38,516 bases of DNA from NCBI RefSeq assembly GCF_000337375.1, contig NZ_AOJG01000041.1, positions 227,071-265,586 of the forward strand, written 5' to 3'. Shown piece after piece: positions 33,835 through 38,516 of this stretch; positions within the stretch are counted from its first letter, which is position 1, and every line of letters starts with the position of its first letter. This stretch comes from Halorubrum lipolyticum DSM 21995. Lineage in GTDB: Archaea; Halobacteriota; Halobacteria; Halobacteriales; Haloferacaceae. The position numbers and the translations under genes were made by a program. The notes below the pieces were generated by a model, which searched no databases, had not been told where the DNA came from, and was given only the letters and a program-made list of their open reading frames with translations.

Positions 33835-34287
33835 TCAGTACCCGGCGTCCTCGGGGTCGATCCGGTCGCCGTACTCCCGCGCGGGGTCGACGGGGCGACC
33901 CTCGTCGGTCTCGGGCGCGACGTAGTCGATGAACGCCTCCACGTCCGGCTCTCGGACGCGGACCGCGACGTCGATCTCGCCGAGCTCGTCCGGCTCGCCG
34001 ACCGCGAAGTTGACGACGCCCTCGAACGCCGCCTGCTTTTTCAGCGAGAAGTCGAACCCCTCGTCGGTGCTGTTCTGTAAGAACACCCGCCGGGCCGTGT
34101 CGAGGATCTCCTGTTCGTGGAGCACGTCCGAGAAGGCGTCTAAGGTGTGCGCCTCGGCGACCAGCCGGCCGTCCTCGTGGATCGGTTCCGCGTCCGGGAA
34201 CACGTTCCGGACCGCGTCGGCGACCCGGTCGGTGGCCTCGGTGTCTCGGACGGGGACCTCGATGCGCACGTCGACGCTGTAGATCAC
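33835..34287 (-). CDS. COG1325 RNA-binding domain protein
   Basis: The 150-aa product matches the archaeal COG1325 family (exosome-associated-type RNA-binding domain): IYSVDVRIEVPVRDTE, VFLQNSTDEGFDFSLKKQAA and VNFAV. The family fold resembles ribosomal L5/L16-type RNA binders. The exact role is not known; RNA metabolism is inferred. The start overlaps the stop of the upstream kinase gene by four bases (ATGA), a common archaeal pairing. Confidence 0.88.
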   Translation of the reverse strand: MIYSVDVRIEVPVRDTEATDRVADAVRNVFPDAEPIHEDGRLVAEAHTLDAFSDVLHEQEILDTARRVFLQNSTDEGFDFSLKKQAAFEGVVNFAVGEPDELGEIDVAVRVREPDVEAFIDYVAPETDEGRPVDPAREYGDRIDPEDAGY

Positions 34288-34931
34288 GACCCGTCACCTC
34301 CGGCGTCGGCGGTCGCGGGACCGGCGTCGGCTTCCCGGTCGGCGTCGGCTTCCCGGTCGGCGCTGCCGCGCTCTCCTTCGCCGTCCGCGACGCCGAGCGC
34401 CTCCCGGACGCGGCGTCGGAACGCCGCCAGCGTCCCGGTGTTGTCGATCTCGACGTCGGCCCGTTCGAGCGTTTCGCCGAGGCCCAGTTCGATCTCTCGA
34501 GCGTCGCGCTCGCGGAGGGCCTCCAGGTCGGAGTCGGAGTCGTCGCGGCCGCGGTCGTCGAGCCGCTCCGCGCGGAGCTCGAAGGGGGCGCGGACCGCCA
34601 CCAGCGTGAAGTCGTCGCCGAACGCCTCGCGGAAGCGCTCAAGTTCGACGGTCGAGCGGAGCCCGTCGACGAGCACGGTGTCGCGCTCGCCGTCGGCCGC
34701 CGCCTCCCGGATCAGCGGGAGCGTCCGGACGGCGATCGCGTCGTCGCCCTCCTCCTCGCGGAGCGCGCCCGCGATCCGGCCGTGGTGTTCGGCCGGGTCG
34801 AGCCCGCGGCGGCGGCACTCGGCGCGGATCACGTCGCCCATGACGACGACCGGGATCCCCGCCTCTTCGGCCACGTTCGCCGCCTCTCCCTTCCCGCTGC
34901 CGGGGAGGCCGACGGTTCCGATGACGTTCAT
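34284..34931 (-). CDS. UPF0200 P-loop kinase (dephospho-CoA kinase-like)
   Basis: The 215-aa product begins MNVIGTVGLPGSGKGEAA (Walker A), followed by VVVMGDVIRAECRRRGLDP and TVLVDGLRSTVELERFREAFG, the UPF0200 pattern. The family is related to nucleotide and dephospho-CoA kinases but its substrate is not established. The C-terminal 25 or so residues form a low-complexity acidic tail containing a duplicated six-residue unit. An ACCTAAGTCC box lies about 30 bp before the ATG. Confidence 0.9.
   Translation of the reverse strand: MNVIGTVGLPGSGKGEAANVAEEAGIPVVVMGDVIRAECRRRGLDPAEHHGRIAGALREEEGDDAIAVRTLPLIREAAADGERDTVLVDGLRSTVELERFREAFGDDFTLVAVRAPFELRAERLDDRGRDDSDSDLEALRERDAREIELGLGETLERADVEIDNTGTLAAFRRRVREALGVADGEGERGSADREADADREADAGPATADAGGDGS
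34326..34361. repeat. Perfect 18-bp tandem duplication inside the UPF0200 gene
   Basis: gtcggcttcccggtcggc is present twice in succession (34326-34343, 34344-34361), in frame, coding for a repeated Ala-Asp-Arg-Glu-Ala-Asp unit in the disordered tail. A likely site of length variation between strains. Confidence 0.8.
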
Positions 34932-35203
34932 TAGCGGCGAGTAGTCCCGTGTCGGACTTAGGTCTGCTGTTGGGGTCCCGAACTCGCCCGCCCGAAAGTT
35001 GCGCTCGAACGGCCCGATATACCTGTGGAGTCGAATAGAAAACTCAATAGAGATAGTATAAAATTATATAAACTATTCGGGAAAGTCATTTAACGTGGCT
35101 GACGTGTGCCAGCAATCCTCTTGCATTCGCCCGCTTCCCTCCGACGGCGACCGGTTCTCGGACGGTGGACGACCGCGGCGACGCACGGCGGCCGCGGAGA
35201 TTC
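34932..35203. other. 272-bp intergenic region ahead of the secreted-protein cassette
   Basis: No gene is supported. The left part holds the UPF0200 promoter (minus strand). The centre (about 35030-35095) is the most AT-rich DNA in the window. The right part (35100-35203) is GC-rich and would be the 5' leader of the cassette; no clear Shine-Dalgarno or hairpin was recognised in it. Confidence 0.6.
35055..35075 (+). promoter_or_regulatory. AT-rich promoter of the secreted-protein cassette
   Basis: Overlapping TATA words (TATAAAATT, TATATAAAC) and a further CATTTAACG at about 35087-35095. The nearest good ATG is 35204, so the transcript would have a leader of roughly 80-120 nt. The concentration of AT is unusual here and hints at horizontal gain or strong regulation. 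Confidence 0.5.
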
Positions 35204-36505
35204 ATGCGACGACGAACACTCATCACGGGAGCGGCGGCCAGCGGTATCGGCGGGATAACACTCATCGGGAGCGGCGCGTTCGACACGGCGACGGCCGAGC
35301 GGACCGCGACGGTGAACTTCGCTGACGACGAGAACGCCTATCTCGGGCTGATCTCGGAGAGCGAGTACGCGGTCGAAGAGGAGGGCGAACTCGCCCTCGA
35401 CTTCACCGAGGTCTCGGCCGACAGCGACGGGATCGGCCGCAACTCGGAGTACTACTTCGACGCCGTGTTCGCGATCGCGAACCAGGGGACCCAGCCGGTT
35501 TCGGTCACCGCGTCGAGCGACGCGGAGTCGTTCGACGGCGACTTCCGGCTCTACCCCACCGACGACCGGAGCGGGACCCTCGACGACGCGGACAACGTGA
35601 TAGACATCGGCGTGGGCGACCAACGCTCGGTCGGTACGCATATCCAGACGGGAGACGTGGACACGAGCAACGACGTGGCCATCGACATTTCTATCGAGGC
35701 GGTCTTCGACGACGAGGGGGACGACGGCGGTGACGAGCCCGACGAGCCCGATCCGGAGCCGCCGGAGACGATCGATATGACGGAGTTTTTCTCCACGTCG
35801 AGTCTCGTCGCCGCAGACGGGAGCCCGCTCGACGACGACTCCGTCGTCGCGGTCCGCGCGGAGCCGACGGCGGAAAACGAGGATCCGGAAGAAGACGACG
35901 AATTCGTCTCGTACCCGGACGACACCGAAATCCCGTTGCTCGCGGTCGACGGCAACGTCCTCGGATTCGGATCGGACCTCGGTTCCGACGGAAGCGACGT
36001 TGATGCGAACCGAACGCTCATGGCGAACGCGTGGCAGACCGTCCTCGACGGTACCGGAACGGTCCTGTACGACGAGACGCACGGCCAGACACTCACGCTC
36101 GACGCCTTCTCCGCGCTCGAATCGGTCGCCGAGGACCGCGGATTCGACGTCGAGGCCATCGGATCGGAGTTCGTCGACGCCCTCAACGACGCGGACGCGG
36201 TGATGGTCGCCACCGACAACGACGACGTGGCGAGTGACGGTGGGTTCTCCGACGCGGAGCGGTCCGCGCTCGCCGACTTCGTCGACGACGGCGGCGCGGT
36301 GTTCCTCCACGGAACCGCCTCGTTCGACGGGACCTCGAACGGCGTACTGAACGCGGTACTCGACGAACTCGACGCCGGGTTCCGGTTCAACTTCGATCAG
36401 GTGACCGACGAAGAGAACTCCGGATTCGCGCCGTTCGTACCGCGCACGAGCAACTTCAACGACGACGAGTTTCCCGACTTCTTCCTCGCGGAGGGTGAGC
36501 TATGA
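35204..36505 (+). CDS. Tat-exported DUF1102-like plus GIFT/DUF4350-like protein
   Basis: The 433-aa product starts MRRRTLITGAAASGIGG, a twin-arginine signal, then GSGAFDTATAERTATVNFADD, typical of DUF1102-like archaeal surface proteins (about residues 25-170, ending before an acidic Pro-rich linker at about 173-190). The C-terminal domain (about 190-433) has the glutamine-amidotransferase-like GIFT/DUF4350 style: LLAVDGNVLGFG, the conserved YDETHGQ (Asp290 to Gln295), a regular alpha/beta alternation and DDGGAVFLHG. Function unknown. An upstream GTG at 35165 would add 13 residues; the ATG at 35204 starts the Tat signal cleanly. Its stop overlaps the next gene (ATGA). Confidence 0.82.
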   Translation: MRRRTLITGAAASGIGGITLIGSGAFDTATAERTATVNFADDENAYLGLISESEYAVEEEGELALDFTEVSADSDGIGRNSEYYFDAVFAIANQGTQPVSVTASSDAESFDGDFRLYPTDDRSGTLDDADNVIDIGVGDQRSVGTHIQTGDVDTSNDVAIDISIEAVFDDEGDDGGDEPDEPDPEPPETIDMTEFFSTSSLVAADGSPLDDDSVVAVRAEPTAENEDPEEDDEFVSYPDDTEIPLLAVDGNVLGFGSDLGSDGSDVDANRTLMANAWQTVLDGTGTVLYDETHGQTLTLDAFSALESVAEDRGFDVEAIGSEFVDALNDADAVMVATDNDDVASDGGFSDAERSALADFVDDGGAVFLHGTASFDGTSNGVLNAVLDELDAGFRFNFDQVTDEENSGFAPFVPRTSNFNDDEFPDFFLAEGEL

Positions 36506-38516
36506 GACGCCGCAGCGTCCTCATCGGCATCGGCGCGACGGCGGCCGGCGGCGGGGCGATCGCCACCGGCGCGTTCGACACGGCGACGGCCGAACGCGAC
36601 GCGACGATCGCGCTCTCCGACGACGCGAACGCCCTGCTCGCGCTCTCGCCGCTCGACGAGGAGTTCGCCACCGTCGACGACGAGGGCGAGCTGGCGCTCG
36701 TGTTCGACGGGGTCGAGGGAGGGGGAACCGGCTTCGGATCGAACACGGTGTACGAGCTCGACGACGTCTTCGAGGTCCGCAACCAGGGCACCGAGGACCT
36801 CGGACTGTTCGCGCAGGTCGATGACGGCGCGCTCGGCGACGCCGACTTCGAGTTGACCGTCGACGGCGAGGCGATCACCGAGGAGCCGAGCGTCGAACTC
36901 GACACCGGGGAGTCGGTCGCGGTCGGGATCCGGGTCGACGCCGGCGGTGATCCCACGGACGGCGAGGTCGCGATCACGCTGGGCGTCGGCGACGGACCGG
37001 TCGATGAACCGGGCGACGATCCCGGTGAGGAGCCGGGAGACGAGCCCGAGTTCGTCGACGAACTGGTGTTCGACTCGACCGCGAGCCTGCTGGCCGACGA
37101 CGGCTATCTCCCCGACGAGGCGATCGTCGTCGCCGCCGAGGACACCGCGGTCTCCGTCGACACGGACGGCAACGGCGACGACACCACCTACCCGGACGAC
37201 GAGCCGCTGCCGCTGATGGCGGTCGACCAGGACCGACCCATCGTCGCCTTCGGCGTCCCGTTCGCGACGAACGGCGTTCAGTTCGGCCAGTACGGCAACG
37301 AGGAGGTGCTGTTGAACGTGTTCGACGCGTACGCCGACTCCGACACGGTGCTGTGGGACGAGGGGCACGGCCAGTTCTACGACCTCGCCAGCCACGAGTC
37401 GTTCGCCGGCTACGCCGAGGATAACGGCTACGTCGTGGAGGCGACGACGGACCTCGAAGACGACCTCTTCGGGCCGGCGTCCGCGATCGTGATCACGTCG
37501 CCGACGGACTCGTTCAGCACCGACGAGCTCGACGCGCTCGCGTCCTTCTCCGACGCCGGAGGGCTCGTCGTGCTCATGGACCAGTCTGACTTCGACAACT
37601 TCGACGAGACGGACAACCTCAACGCGTTGGCGAACGGGATCGACTCGCAGATCCGGTTCAACGACAACCAGGTCGAGGACGGCGAGAGCAACGACGGCGC
37701 CGACTTCGCTCCGACGACGACTGCGCTCGACACGGGGACGTATCCCGACCTGCTCGCCGACCGCGACGGTCTCGGGCTCGAACTCGACCCGAGCGAGGAG
37801 TACGAGGTCGAGGTCGTCAGCGTCGCCGACGGCGACACGGTCGACGTCCAGTTCGACAACGAACTGGTCGAGACCGTTCGGACGCTGGGTCACGATTCGC
37901 CGGAGACCAGCGCCGGCCCGGAGCTCCCGGAGGAGTGGGAGGGGATCGACGACGTCGACACCCTCCTCGACTACGGCGACGAGGCGACGACGTACGCGCA
38001 AGACCAGCTTCCCGAGGGCGAGACGGTCACCATCTCGTTCGACGAGAACGAGGGACTCCGCGGGGACTTCGGACGGCTGCTCGGACTCGTCACGCTGGAC
38101 GACGGCACCCTGTACAACGAGGCGCTCGTCGCCGACGGGTACGGACGCGTGTACGACTCCGGGCTCGGACTCCACGACCAGCTCTGGAGCGCCGAGGCCG
38201 AGGCGCGCGCGAACGACCGCGGCGTCTGGGCGGAAAGCGACGTGAGCGCGACGCCAGTCGTGGGCGACGGCCCGGTCGACGAGCTGTTCGTCCCGTACGC
38301 GACCGCGGTCGCGGCCGCGGACGGCGGATCGGTCCCGGACGACCGCGTCCCGGTCGAATCCGAGGACGGCGACCCGCTCGTGGGCGTCGACGTCGACAGC
38401 AACGTCGCGCTGGTCGGCGGGCCGCTGCCCGACGAGAGCTTCGAGAGCGGCGAGGGCGGCCCCGGAACCGAGCCGTACGGCAACTACGTCTTCCTCGCGA
38501 ACCTGATCGACGCCGT
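36502..38516 (+). CDS. Tat-exported DUF1102-like / GIFT-like / thermonuclease multidomain protein (partial)
   Basis: Open to the window end, 671 codons visible. In order: Tat signal MRRRSVLIGIGATAAGGG; DUF1102-like region (about 20-165, again GAFDTATAERD); acidic Pro linker (168-182); GIFT/DUF4350-like domain (about 183-425) with WDEGHGQ at 285-291; a staphylococcal-nuclease-like domain (about 434-578); then the beginning of what looks like a second GIFT-like domain. The nuclease active site is complete when aligned to staphylococcal nuclease Asp21, Arg35, Asp40, Glu43, Arg87: Asp445, Arg460, Asp465, Glu468, Arg525. It should act outside the cell on DNA or RNA. Translation is coupled to the preceding gene by ATGA. 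Confidence 0.85.
   Translation, partial: MRRRSVLIGIGATAAGGGAIATGAFDTATAERDATIALSDDANALLALSPLDEEFATVDDEGELALVFDGVEGGGTGFGSNTVYELDDVFEVRNQGTEDLGLFAQVDDGALGDADFELTVDGEAITEEPSVELDTGESVAVGIRVDAGGDPTDGEVAITLGVGDGPVDEPGDDPGEEPGDEPEFVDELVFDSTASLLADDGYLPDEAIVVAAEDTAVSVDTDGNGDDTTYPDDEPLPLMAVDQDRPIVAFGVPFATNGVQFGQYGNEEVLLNVFDAYADSDTVLWDEGHGQFYDLASHESFAGYAEDNGYVVEATTDLEDDLFGPASAIVITSPTDSFSTDELDALASFSDAGGLVVLMDQSDFDNFDETDNLNALANGIDSQIRFNDNQVEDGESNDGADFAPTTTALDTGTYPDLLADRDGLGLELDPSEEYEVEVVSVADGDTVDVQFDNELVETVRTLGHDSPETSAGPELPEEWEGIDDVDTLLDYGDEATTYAQDQLPEGETVTISFDENEGLRGDFGRLLGLVTLDDGTLYNEALVADGYGRVYDSGLGLHDQLWSAEAEARANDRGVWAESDVSATPVVGDGPVDELFVPYATAVAAADGGSVPDDRVPVESEDGDPLVGVDVDSNVALVGGPLPDESFESGEGGPGTEPYGNYVFLANLIDA

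Follow-up and report, generated by a model that had tools for sequence, protein, structure and literature searches.

A stretch of 38,516 nt from the genome of Halorubrum lipolyticum DSM 21995 (assembly GCF_000337375.1, contig NZ_AOJG01000041.1, positions 227,071-265,586, forward strand), referred to here as the window and used for all coordinates below, ends in two plus-strand genes that encode putatively exported proteins of closely similar design. Gene 1 (35204..36505, that is, 35204-36502 plus the stop codon) specifies a 433-residue protein, recognized through its orthologues and Pfam, in which an export-type head is followed by a GIFT domain and there is no nuclease. Gene 2 starts at 36502, and its in-window part, to 38516, comprises a head, a first GIFT domain (GIFT-A), an SNase-type nuclease and the beginning of a second GIFT domain (GIFT-B), the gene running on to about 39340. 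The initial annotation had described two genes overlapping by ATGA and sharing one plan, and this description stands. The overlap is present at 36502..36505 (plus strand) and is identical in all eight unbroken pairs. Both proteins begin with MRRR and a hydrophobic stretch reaching the GAFDTATAER motif that had been pointed out (SGAFDTATAER in gene 1, TGAFDTATAER in gene 2), and in both a twin-arginine translocation (Tat)-type N-terminus is followed by a DUF1102-type head, an acidic proline linker and a GIFT/DUF4350 domain with a D-E-x-H-G-Q motif, DETHGQ at residues 290-295 of gene 1 and DEGHGQ at 286-291 of gene 2, exactly as claimed. The 2 proteins align end to end by BLASTP (438 columns, 36% identity, E 4e-46), and the domains, whose failure to align by profile comparison had been named as a reason to abandon the idea, align profile to profile over 411 columns (probability 100%, E 4e-92).

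Recurrence of the 2 genes as neighbours, the other point on which the annotation had staked its case, is seen in 9 of 52 Halorubrum genomes: G000 (the window's own), G140, G126, G141, G157, G138, G150, G013 and G100. In G100 both genes are broken; the other 8 pairs are unbroken and overlap by the same 4 nt.

The heads are the part that suggests a surface structure. The gene 1 head (residues 1-191; 35204..35776, plus strand) consists of a Tat-type signal, a DUF1102/Taf fimbrial-type domain and the acidic proline linker, as delimited by DUF1102, TafE, the solved chain 9p0a and the breakpoint described below; the gene 2 head (residues 1-162; 36502..36987, plus strand) was recognized with a head profile built in this analysis. 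Pfam DUF1102 matches gene 1 above its cut-off (2.7e-6) and gene 2 below it (17.2 vs 22.2 bits), and NCBIfam TafE matches both below its cut-off (7e-10 for gene 1, 5e-11 for gene 2). A profile of 8 pair proteins finds 9p0a, a chain named Pilin, over residues 1-165 with E 6e-11; the corresponding values are 1.8e-7 for gene 2 and 0.0015 for a profile of the 9 gene-1 proteins alone. By these matches the heads resemble TasA-like (Taf) fimbrial subunits and are probably related to them. TasA, the archaeal bundling pili and the haloarchaeal Taf proteins (DUF1102, TafA, TafC, TafE, 9p0a) have in common with the pair an export signal ending in GTGAF or GAF, followed by a head of DUF1102 length; unlike them, the pair carries a large C-terminal cargo of GIFT and nuclease domains, scores below the Taf cut-offs and lies outside a fimbrial operon. 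In Bacillus TasA, as presented in the accessible portion of PMC9674648, an N-terminal donor strand completes the next subunit and so drives polymerization, and the first strand is there proposed to come from TapA, an accessory protein (PMC9674648). By analogy, the strand that follows the cleavage site in the pair proteins could serve as a donor strand. Several haloarchaea also have arrays of genes in which DUF1102/Taf heads are joined to varied C-terminal parts, in frames of up to about 860 codons (L089, L090, L091, L087, L095).

Two kinds of cargo follow the heads. The GIFT domain of gene 1 (residues 192-433; 35777..36502, plus strand), of a type designated T1, is assigned from a DUF4350 match below cut-off (22.3 bits), a GIFT profile made in this analysis and its position in trees, and it aligns with the gene 2 GIFT by profile comparison; its DETHGQ motif lies at 36071..36088 (plus strand), with D, E, H, G and Q invariant among 9 gene-1 proteins. 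GIFT-A of gene 2 (residues 183-430; 37048..37791, plus strand; DEGHGQ at 37357-37374) matches DUF4350 outright (38.6 bits, 1.8e-9, cut-off 30.4). In several relatives DUF4350, ABC_transp_aux and IFT52_GIFT all match the same stretch above cut-off, a likeness to the GIFT/IFT52-GldG group, where GIFT domains are associated with sugar binding or envelope transport. In contrast to the proteins of that group, the GIFT domains of the pair family are of an exported type, repeated and swapped between proteins, and in long relatives they are nested.

The nuclease was claimed for gene 2 only, and a Pfam SNase match is found in gene 2 only, at residues 429-588 (37786..38265, plus strand; 41.8 vs a cut-off of 21 bits, 1.6e-10). 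D445, R460, D465, E468 and R525 are invariant across 9 relatives and in register with solved thermonucleases; we take them to be equivalent to the catalytic SNase residues D21, R35, D40, E43 and R87. GIFT-B begins at 38284 and is cut by the window edge at 38516 (plus strand), but is complete in orthologues. Beyond an ambiguous base just past the edge, gene 2 can be followed as a separate piece through a second GIFT, with the motif GGHGQF, and then a lamin tail (Pfam E 1.1e-19) to its end at about 39340, and tRNA-Arg(tct) follows 64 bp later, at about 39405. The full-length G140 orthologue, of 941 residues, has head, GIFT, SNase, GIFT and lamin tail in one frame.

Surface nucleases of the Hvo_1477/YokF type offer a known layout close to this one. 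Hvo_1477 of Haloferax is, in the accessible part of its description, a predicted lipoprotein with an SNase domain and a lamin tail, which the cells require to grow on extracellular DNA (PMC3929857), and the order of SNase and then lamin tail, with a predicted surface location, is the one seen in gene 2 (PMC3929857). Gene 2 differs in having a Taf head in place of a lipobox, 2 GIFT domains flanking the SNase and a tandem nuclease-free partner; its start, MRRRSVLIGIGATAAGGGAIATGAF, has no cysteine for lipobox anchoring. This nuclease body occurs with different ends, namely a Taf head and lamin tail, a dockerin below cut-off, or no head. At L083 (G017) a GIFT-nuclease has a dockerin-like C-terminus, below cut-off, as another apparent anchor, and at L084 a GIFT-nuclease ends in what appears by eye to be, and what we presume to be, a PGF-type tail.

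The modules of the pair are exchanged. Gene-1 GIFT domains fall into 2 types, T1 in G000, G140, G126, G141 and G157 and T2 in G150, G138, G013 and G100. Between types the heads are 92% identical and the GIFT domains 43% when G000 is left out (87% and 43% with it). The gene-1 head of the window genome is an outlier (lowest identity to the others about 67%), so the contrast is clearest in the other 8. With G000 and G100 excluded, 12 pairs place the best single breakpoint after residue 191, where the linker ends, and none of 2,000 column shuffles matched the contrast. Since synonymous divergence (dS) between types also jumps, from 0.28 in the heads to 1.22 in the GIFT domains (20 pairs), fast protein evolution alone is an insufficient explanation. 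Exchange is not confined to gene 1. The gene-2 GIFT-B domains of G138 and G013 share 80-82% identity with that of a second nuclease copy in G150 but 54-56% with those of 5 other gene 2s, and gene-2 lamin tails within one group range from 38 to 85% identity, a range inflated because the G126 tail ends in an apparent shifted frame. At the pair site in G164 a single gene carries a gene-1 head on a gene-2 body, the head being 85-87% identical to 8 gene-1 heads, 64% to that of G000 and 42-46% to the gene-2 heads of pairs; such a fusion is what a deletion between tandem copies would be expected to leave. Domains of T1 type (52-59% identical) also occur inside single open frames of 1,180-1,515 codons, and all 6 examined contain an SNase as well, a Rosetta-stone link between the products of the 2 genes. 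In the long protein of G148 (L131:6217-10098) and its relatives in G199, G316, G329 and G405 the GIFT domains appear to be nested like Russian dolls, in the order of profile positions about 1-140, 5-140, full domain, 144-236 and 142-250, then SNase; at L131 and L167 a large protein with CarboxypepD_reg repeats comes directly after the long multi-GIFT nuclease.

The notion of gene 1 as a paralogue in decay, without any function proper to it, is highly improbable. The notion takes its appeal from the fact that gene 1 lost, or never had, a nuclease, that it is broken in 1 of 9 genomes (G100, together with gene 2) and that the pair is missing from 43 of the 52. However, 8 of 9 copies are unbroken with the overlap kept, DExHGQ is retained in all 9, and the ratio of nonsynonymous to synonymous substitution rates (dN/dS) within allele types is well under 1 in both domains (heads about 0.37 for T1 and 0.20 for T2; GIFT 0.22 for T1 and 0.20 for T2). 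Judged by these ratios, gene 1 is under purifying selection.

The initial annotation had tentatively explained the pair by tandem duplication followed by gain of the nuclease in gene 2, an order of events that is not supported. In a tree of 93 heads (quick method, other rows shorter than 140 residues left out, with the 4 headed nucleases then known), gene 1 and gene 2 heads are sisters (Shimodaira-Hasegawa-like approximate likelihood ratio test, SH-aLRT, 93), grouped with those 4 nucleases of other loci (84). A slower tree of 34 rows, comprising 7 of 9 gene-1 heads, 7 of 8 gene-2 heads, 8 of 9 headed single nucleases and 12 hand-picked others and carrying a long-branch warning, joined the 2 heads again (93/90), though constraints placing gene 2 or gene 1 with the other nucleases were not rejected (approximately unbiased test, p 0.085 and 0.26). 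The heads are thus sisters in 2 trees, without full support, but the present GIFT of gene 1 is not a simple copy of that of gene 2. A tree of 76 GIFT domains has 2 deep clades (100/100), one of domains that precede the SNase and one of domains that follow it, and the gene 1 domains belong to the former. In a tree of 71 domains of at least 185 residues (quick method), T1 nests with the innermost GIFT of the long nucleases of G148 and other genera (SH-aLRT 100), T2 is a separate lineage, and GIFT-A of gene 2 goes with a single-gene nuclease of G002 (99). Whole-gene duplication that included the current GIFT of gene 1 is not supported, T1 grouping with the long nucleases. As to the nuclease, GIFT-nuclease-GIFT single genes are widespread across the class and headed ones exist outside the genus, so that the nuclease layout already existed before the pair arose; these distributions and the GIFT trees contradict a late gain by gene 2, which the head tree by itself does not reject. 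What gene 1 has is a head resembling that of gene 2, joined to a GIFT domain that was replaced.

The distribution of the single genes is also where a plainer reading finds its footing. Headed single-gene nucleases were found in G150 (its second copy), G009, G030, G002, G285, G323, G248, G213 and G214 (partial head), 8 genomes with them lying outside the genus, one with the partial head; among the neighbours of these 9, taken by rough picking of open reading frames, there was no second headed gene. Nuclease-free proteins of the gene-1 type were confined to this genus among the matches listed from a 148-genome family search and a 391-genome class search, the latter keeping matches at E 1e-30, where weaker gene-1-type proteins could be missed. 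Headless GIFT-SNase-GIFT homologues are far commoner than headed ones and occur as single genes across the class; they have the same body, with or without the lamin tail, and within the family share about 45-53% identity with gene 2, but lack the DUF1102 head and the partner, and their plasmid copies are annotated as thermonuclease, lamin-tail or PKD proteins. A set of 72,556 plasmid records yielded 3 matches to gene 1 and 30 to gene 2, all with coverage below 80%. It is possible, if somewhat doubtful, that the pair is an ordinary exported deoxyribonuclease (DNase) system, in which the head is just an export signal and spacer, gene 2 a lone scavenger and gene 1 an accessory binder, with no filament involved. 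The abundance of headless homologues and the absence of a fimbrial operon from the locus fit this well. Against it, the head retains the full DUF1102 length, is better conserved than the GIFT attached to it (92% vs 43% between allele types, without G000), clusters with other Taf-type heads and matches a solved pilin.

The pair occupies a defined site. Its left anchor is a divergent gene on the minus strand (34284..34931), AAA-kinase-like (the kinase name given by eye) and present in 52 of 52 genus genomes; its right anchor is the tRNA-Arg gene. Cargo lies between the two at the 7 sites measured (the pairs of G000, G140, G013, G138 and G150, and the sites of G164 and G148), G164 having one gene and G148 a long multi-GIFT nuclease on the opposite strand; G146 has a multi-GIFT nuclease too. 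Where the pair is missing, the gap is 100-111 bp in 16 of 16 sites fetched from the 40 genomes without a match. On the 3′ side of tRNA-Arg(tct), at about 39405, the next conserved gene shifts by hundreds to thousands of bp between genomes, and by this variability the site looks like an insertion hotspot. Viral origin was considered and set aside, no relative being confirmed in viral_contigs and PHROGs matching the nuclease part alone.

Swapping under a constant head, which resembles polymorphic effectors, raises the question of a device for antagonism or defence against viruses, in which the variable GIFT would pick out cells or virions, the nuclease would destroy their DNA and gene 1 would be a decoy or a second specificity. 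The PADLOC candidate defence model SNc+LTD does match the gene 2 nuclease (E 1.4e-18). Nevertheless, this reading is improbable. No immunity-like gene was recognized beside the pair when the locus was read by eye, tRNA-Arg coming directly after gene 2 with no small partner gene, whereas polymorphic toxin systems are marked by a variable toxin together with an immunity gene. Moreover, the SNase is a conserved part and not one of many swapped toxins, GIFT and lamin tail varying more; the scan of viral_contigs gave no relative; and for an exported nuclease no route of entry into cells is established.

Upstream of gene 1, a probable TATA-type promoter for the pair, GTATAAAATTATATAAAC (35056..35073, plus strand), lies 148 bp before the ATG, and all 10 genomes compared have a GTATAAA element ahead of gene 1 or, in G164, of the fusion gene, at a distance of 148, 149, 168 or 169 bp. 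The leader between this element and gene 1 (35074-35203; about 130-150 nt) has conserved blocks at both ends and 2 length alleles that do not track the GIFT alleles. One block, GTGGCTGACGTGTGCCAG (35095..35112, plus strand), occurs at this locus in all 8 genomes searched that have the pair or the fusion and in none of 4 others, with one additional one-mismatch match in G138. A 14-bp closing helix, its pairs mostly invariant, is predicted for the leader RNA, whose folding is no better than that of shuffles (z 0.25, -0.92 and 0.11).

From the export-type N-termini, the domain homologies, the conserved nuclease residues, the conservation of the pair and the module swapping, we arrive at a reading that has about an even chance of being right: a modular extracellular DNase, tethered to the surface or to a fimbria, with a nuclease-free partner and exchangeable GIFT recognition modules. 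Both proteins would leave the cell by Tat-type export. Their TasA/Taf-type heads would tether them to the surface, with N-terminal donor strands linking them to a TasA-like filament or to one another, and the GIFT, second GIFT and lamin-tail modules may recognize a target outside, whether glycan, envelope or nucleoprotein. The SNase would then cut extracellular DNA, for DNA feeding or biofilm remodelling, while gene 1 would supply in trans a second, exchangeable GIFT of the kind that other archaea fuse with the nuclease in one chain. A more specific version is unlikely: a two-subunit TasA-like filament in which the constant heads assemble together through donor strands, with gene 1 determining a strain-specific target at which gene 2 cuts DNA.

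Several observations weigh against the tethered DNase. TafE scores of 38.9 and 42.6 bits are far below the 155 of a Taf equivalog, and no fimbrial genes adjoin the pair in the locus as read by eye from translations. A SipW-type peptidase or S-layer gene past the right edge, which the initial annotation had suggested looking for, was recognized nowhere up to the contig end by the same reading; the SipW-type peptidase of this genome is on another contig, C15, within about 5 kb of Taf-like genes. Of the 52 genus genomes, 6 have a TafA above cut-off; 4 of these belong to the 9 pair-bearing genomes and 2 to the remaining 43 (Fisher p 0.006, post hoc and uncorrected for relatedness). Since the other 46, the window genome among them, have none above cut-off, a TafA filament is not required, a point in favour of the plain exported DNase. 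The AlphaFold models are poor (mean predicted local distance difference test score 46.5 for gene 1 and 39.5 for a full-length gene-2 orthologue), and a Foldseek search with the gene 1 model, not used further, gave generic, mostly flavodoxin-like results and nothing at E <= 0.001, so that head fold and donor strand are putative. On the nuclease side, the EcnA match of gene 2 (4e-22) is nonetheless far below cut-off. The likeness to Hvo_1477 is one of layout alone, no GIFT or Taf head being described for that protein in the accessible part of the source (PMC3929857). Finally, the ambiguous base after the window is a single N at 38517 (L009:10588), where the gene 2 frame shifts; the shift may be genuine or may reflect uncertainty in sequencing or assembly, and the intactness of gene 2 in this genome hangs on that base.

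Although the kinds of parts are known, their combination, the tandem partnership and the swapping are undescribed as far as searches of open-access literature show. These searches listed nothing recognizably about Taf-headed nucleases, haloarchaeal DUF4350 proteins or 9p0a, which is weak evidence of absence. Haloarchaea are surrounded by large amounts of extracellular DNA, and to our knowledge little is known of how they bind or cut it beyond one nuclease gene. The pair brings TasA-like fimbriae and surface nucleases, otherwise separate fields, together in one polypeptide. If the filament reading is true, recombination at the head-GIFT linker would be a way of diversifying surface recognition, and the nuclease would be a fimbria-displayed one in archaea. 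In any case, the genus offers a natural experiment, with almost the same head bearing different GIFT domains, in which recognition would be testable by allele swaps between close strains.

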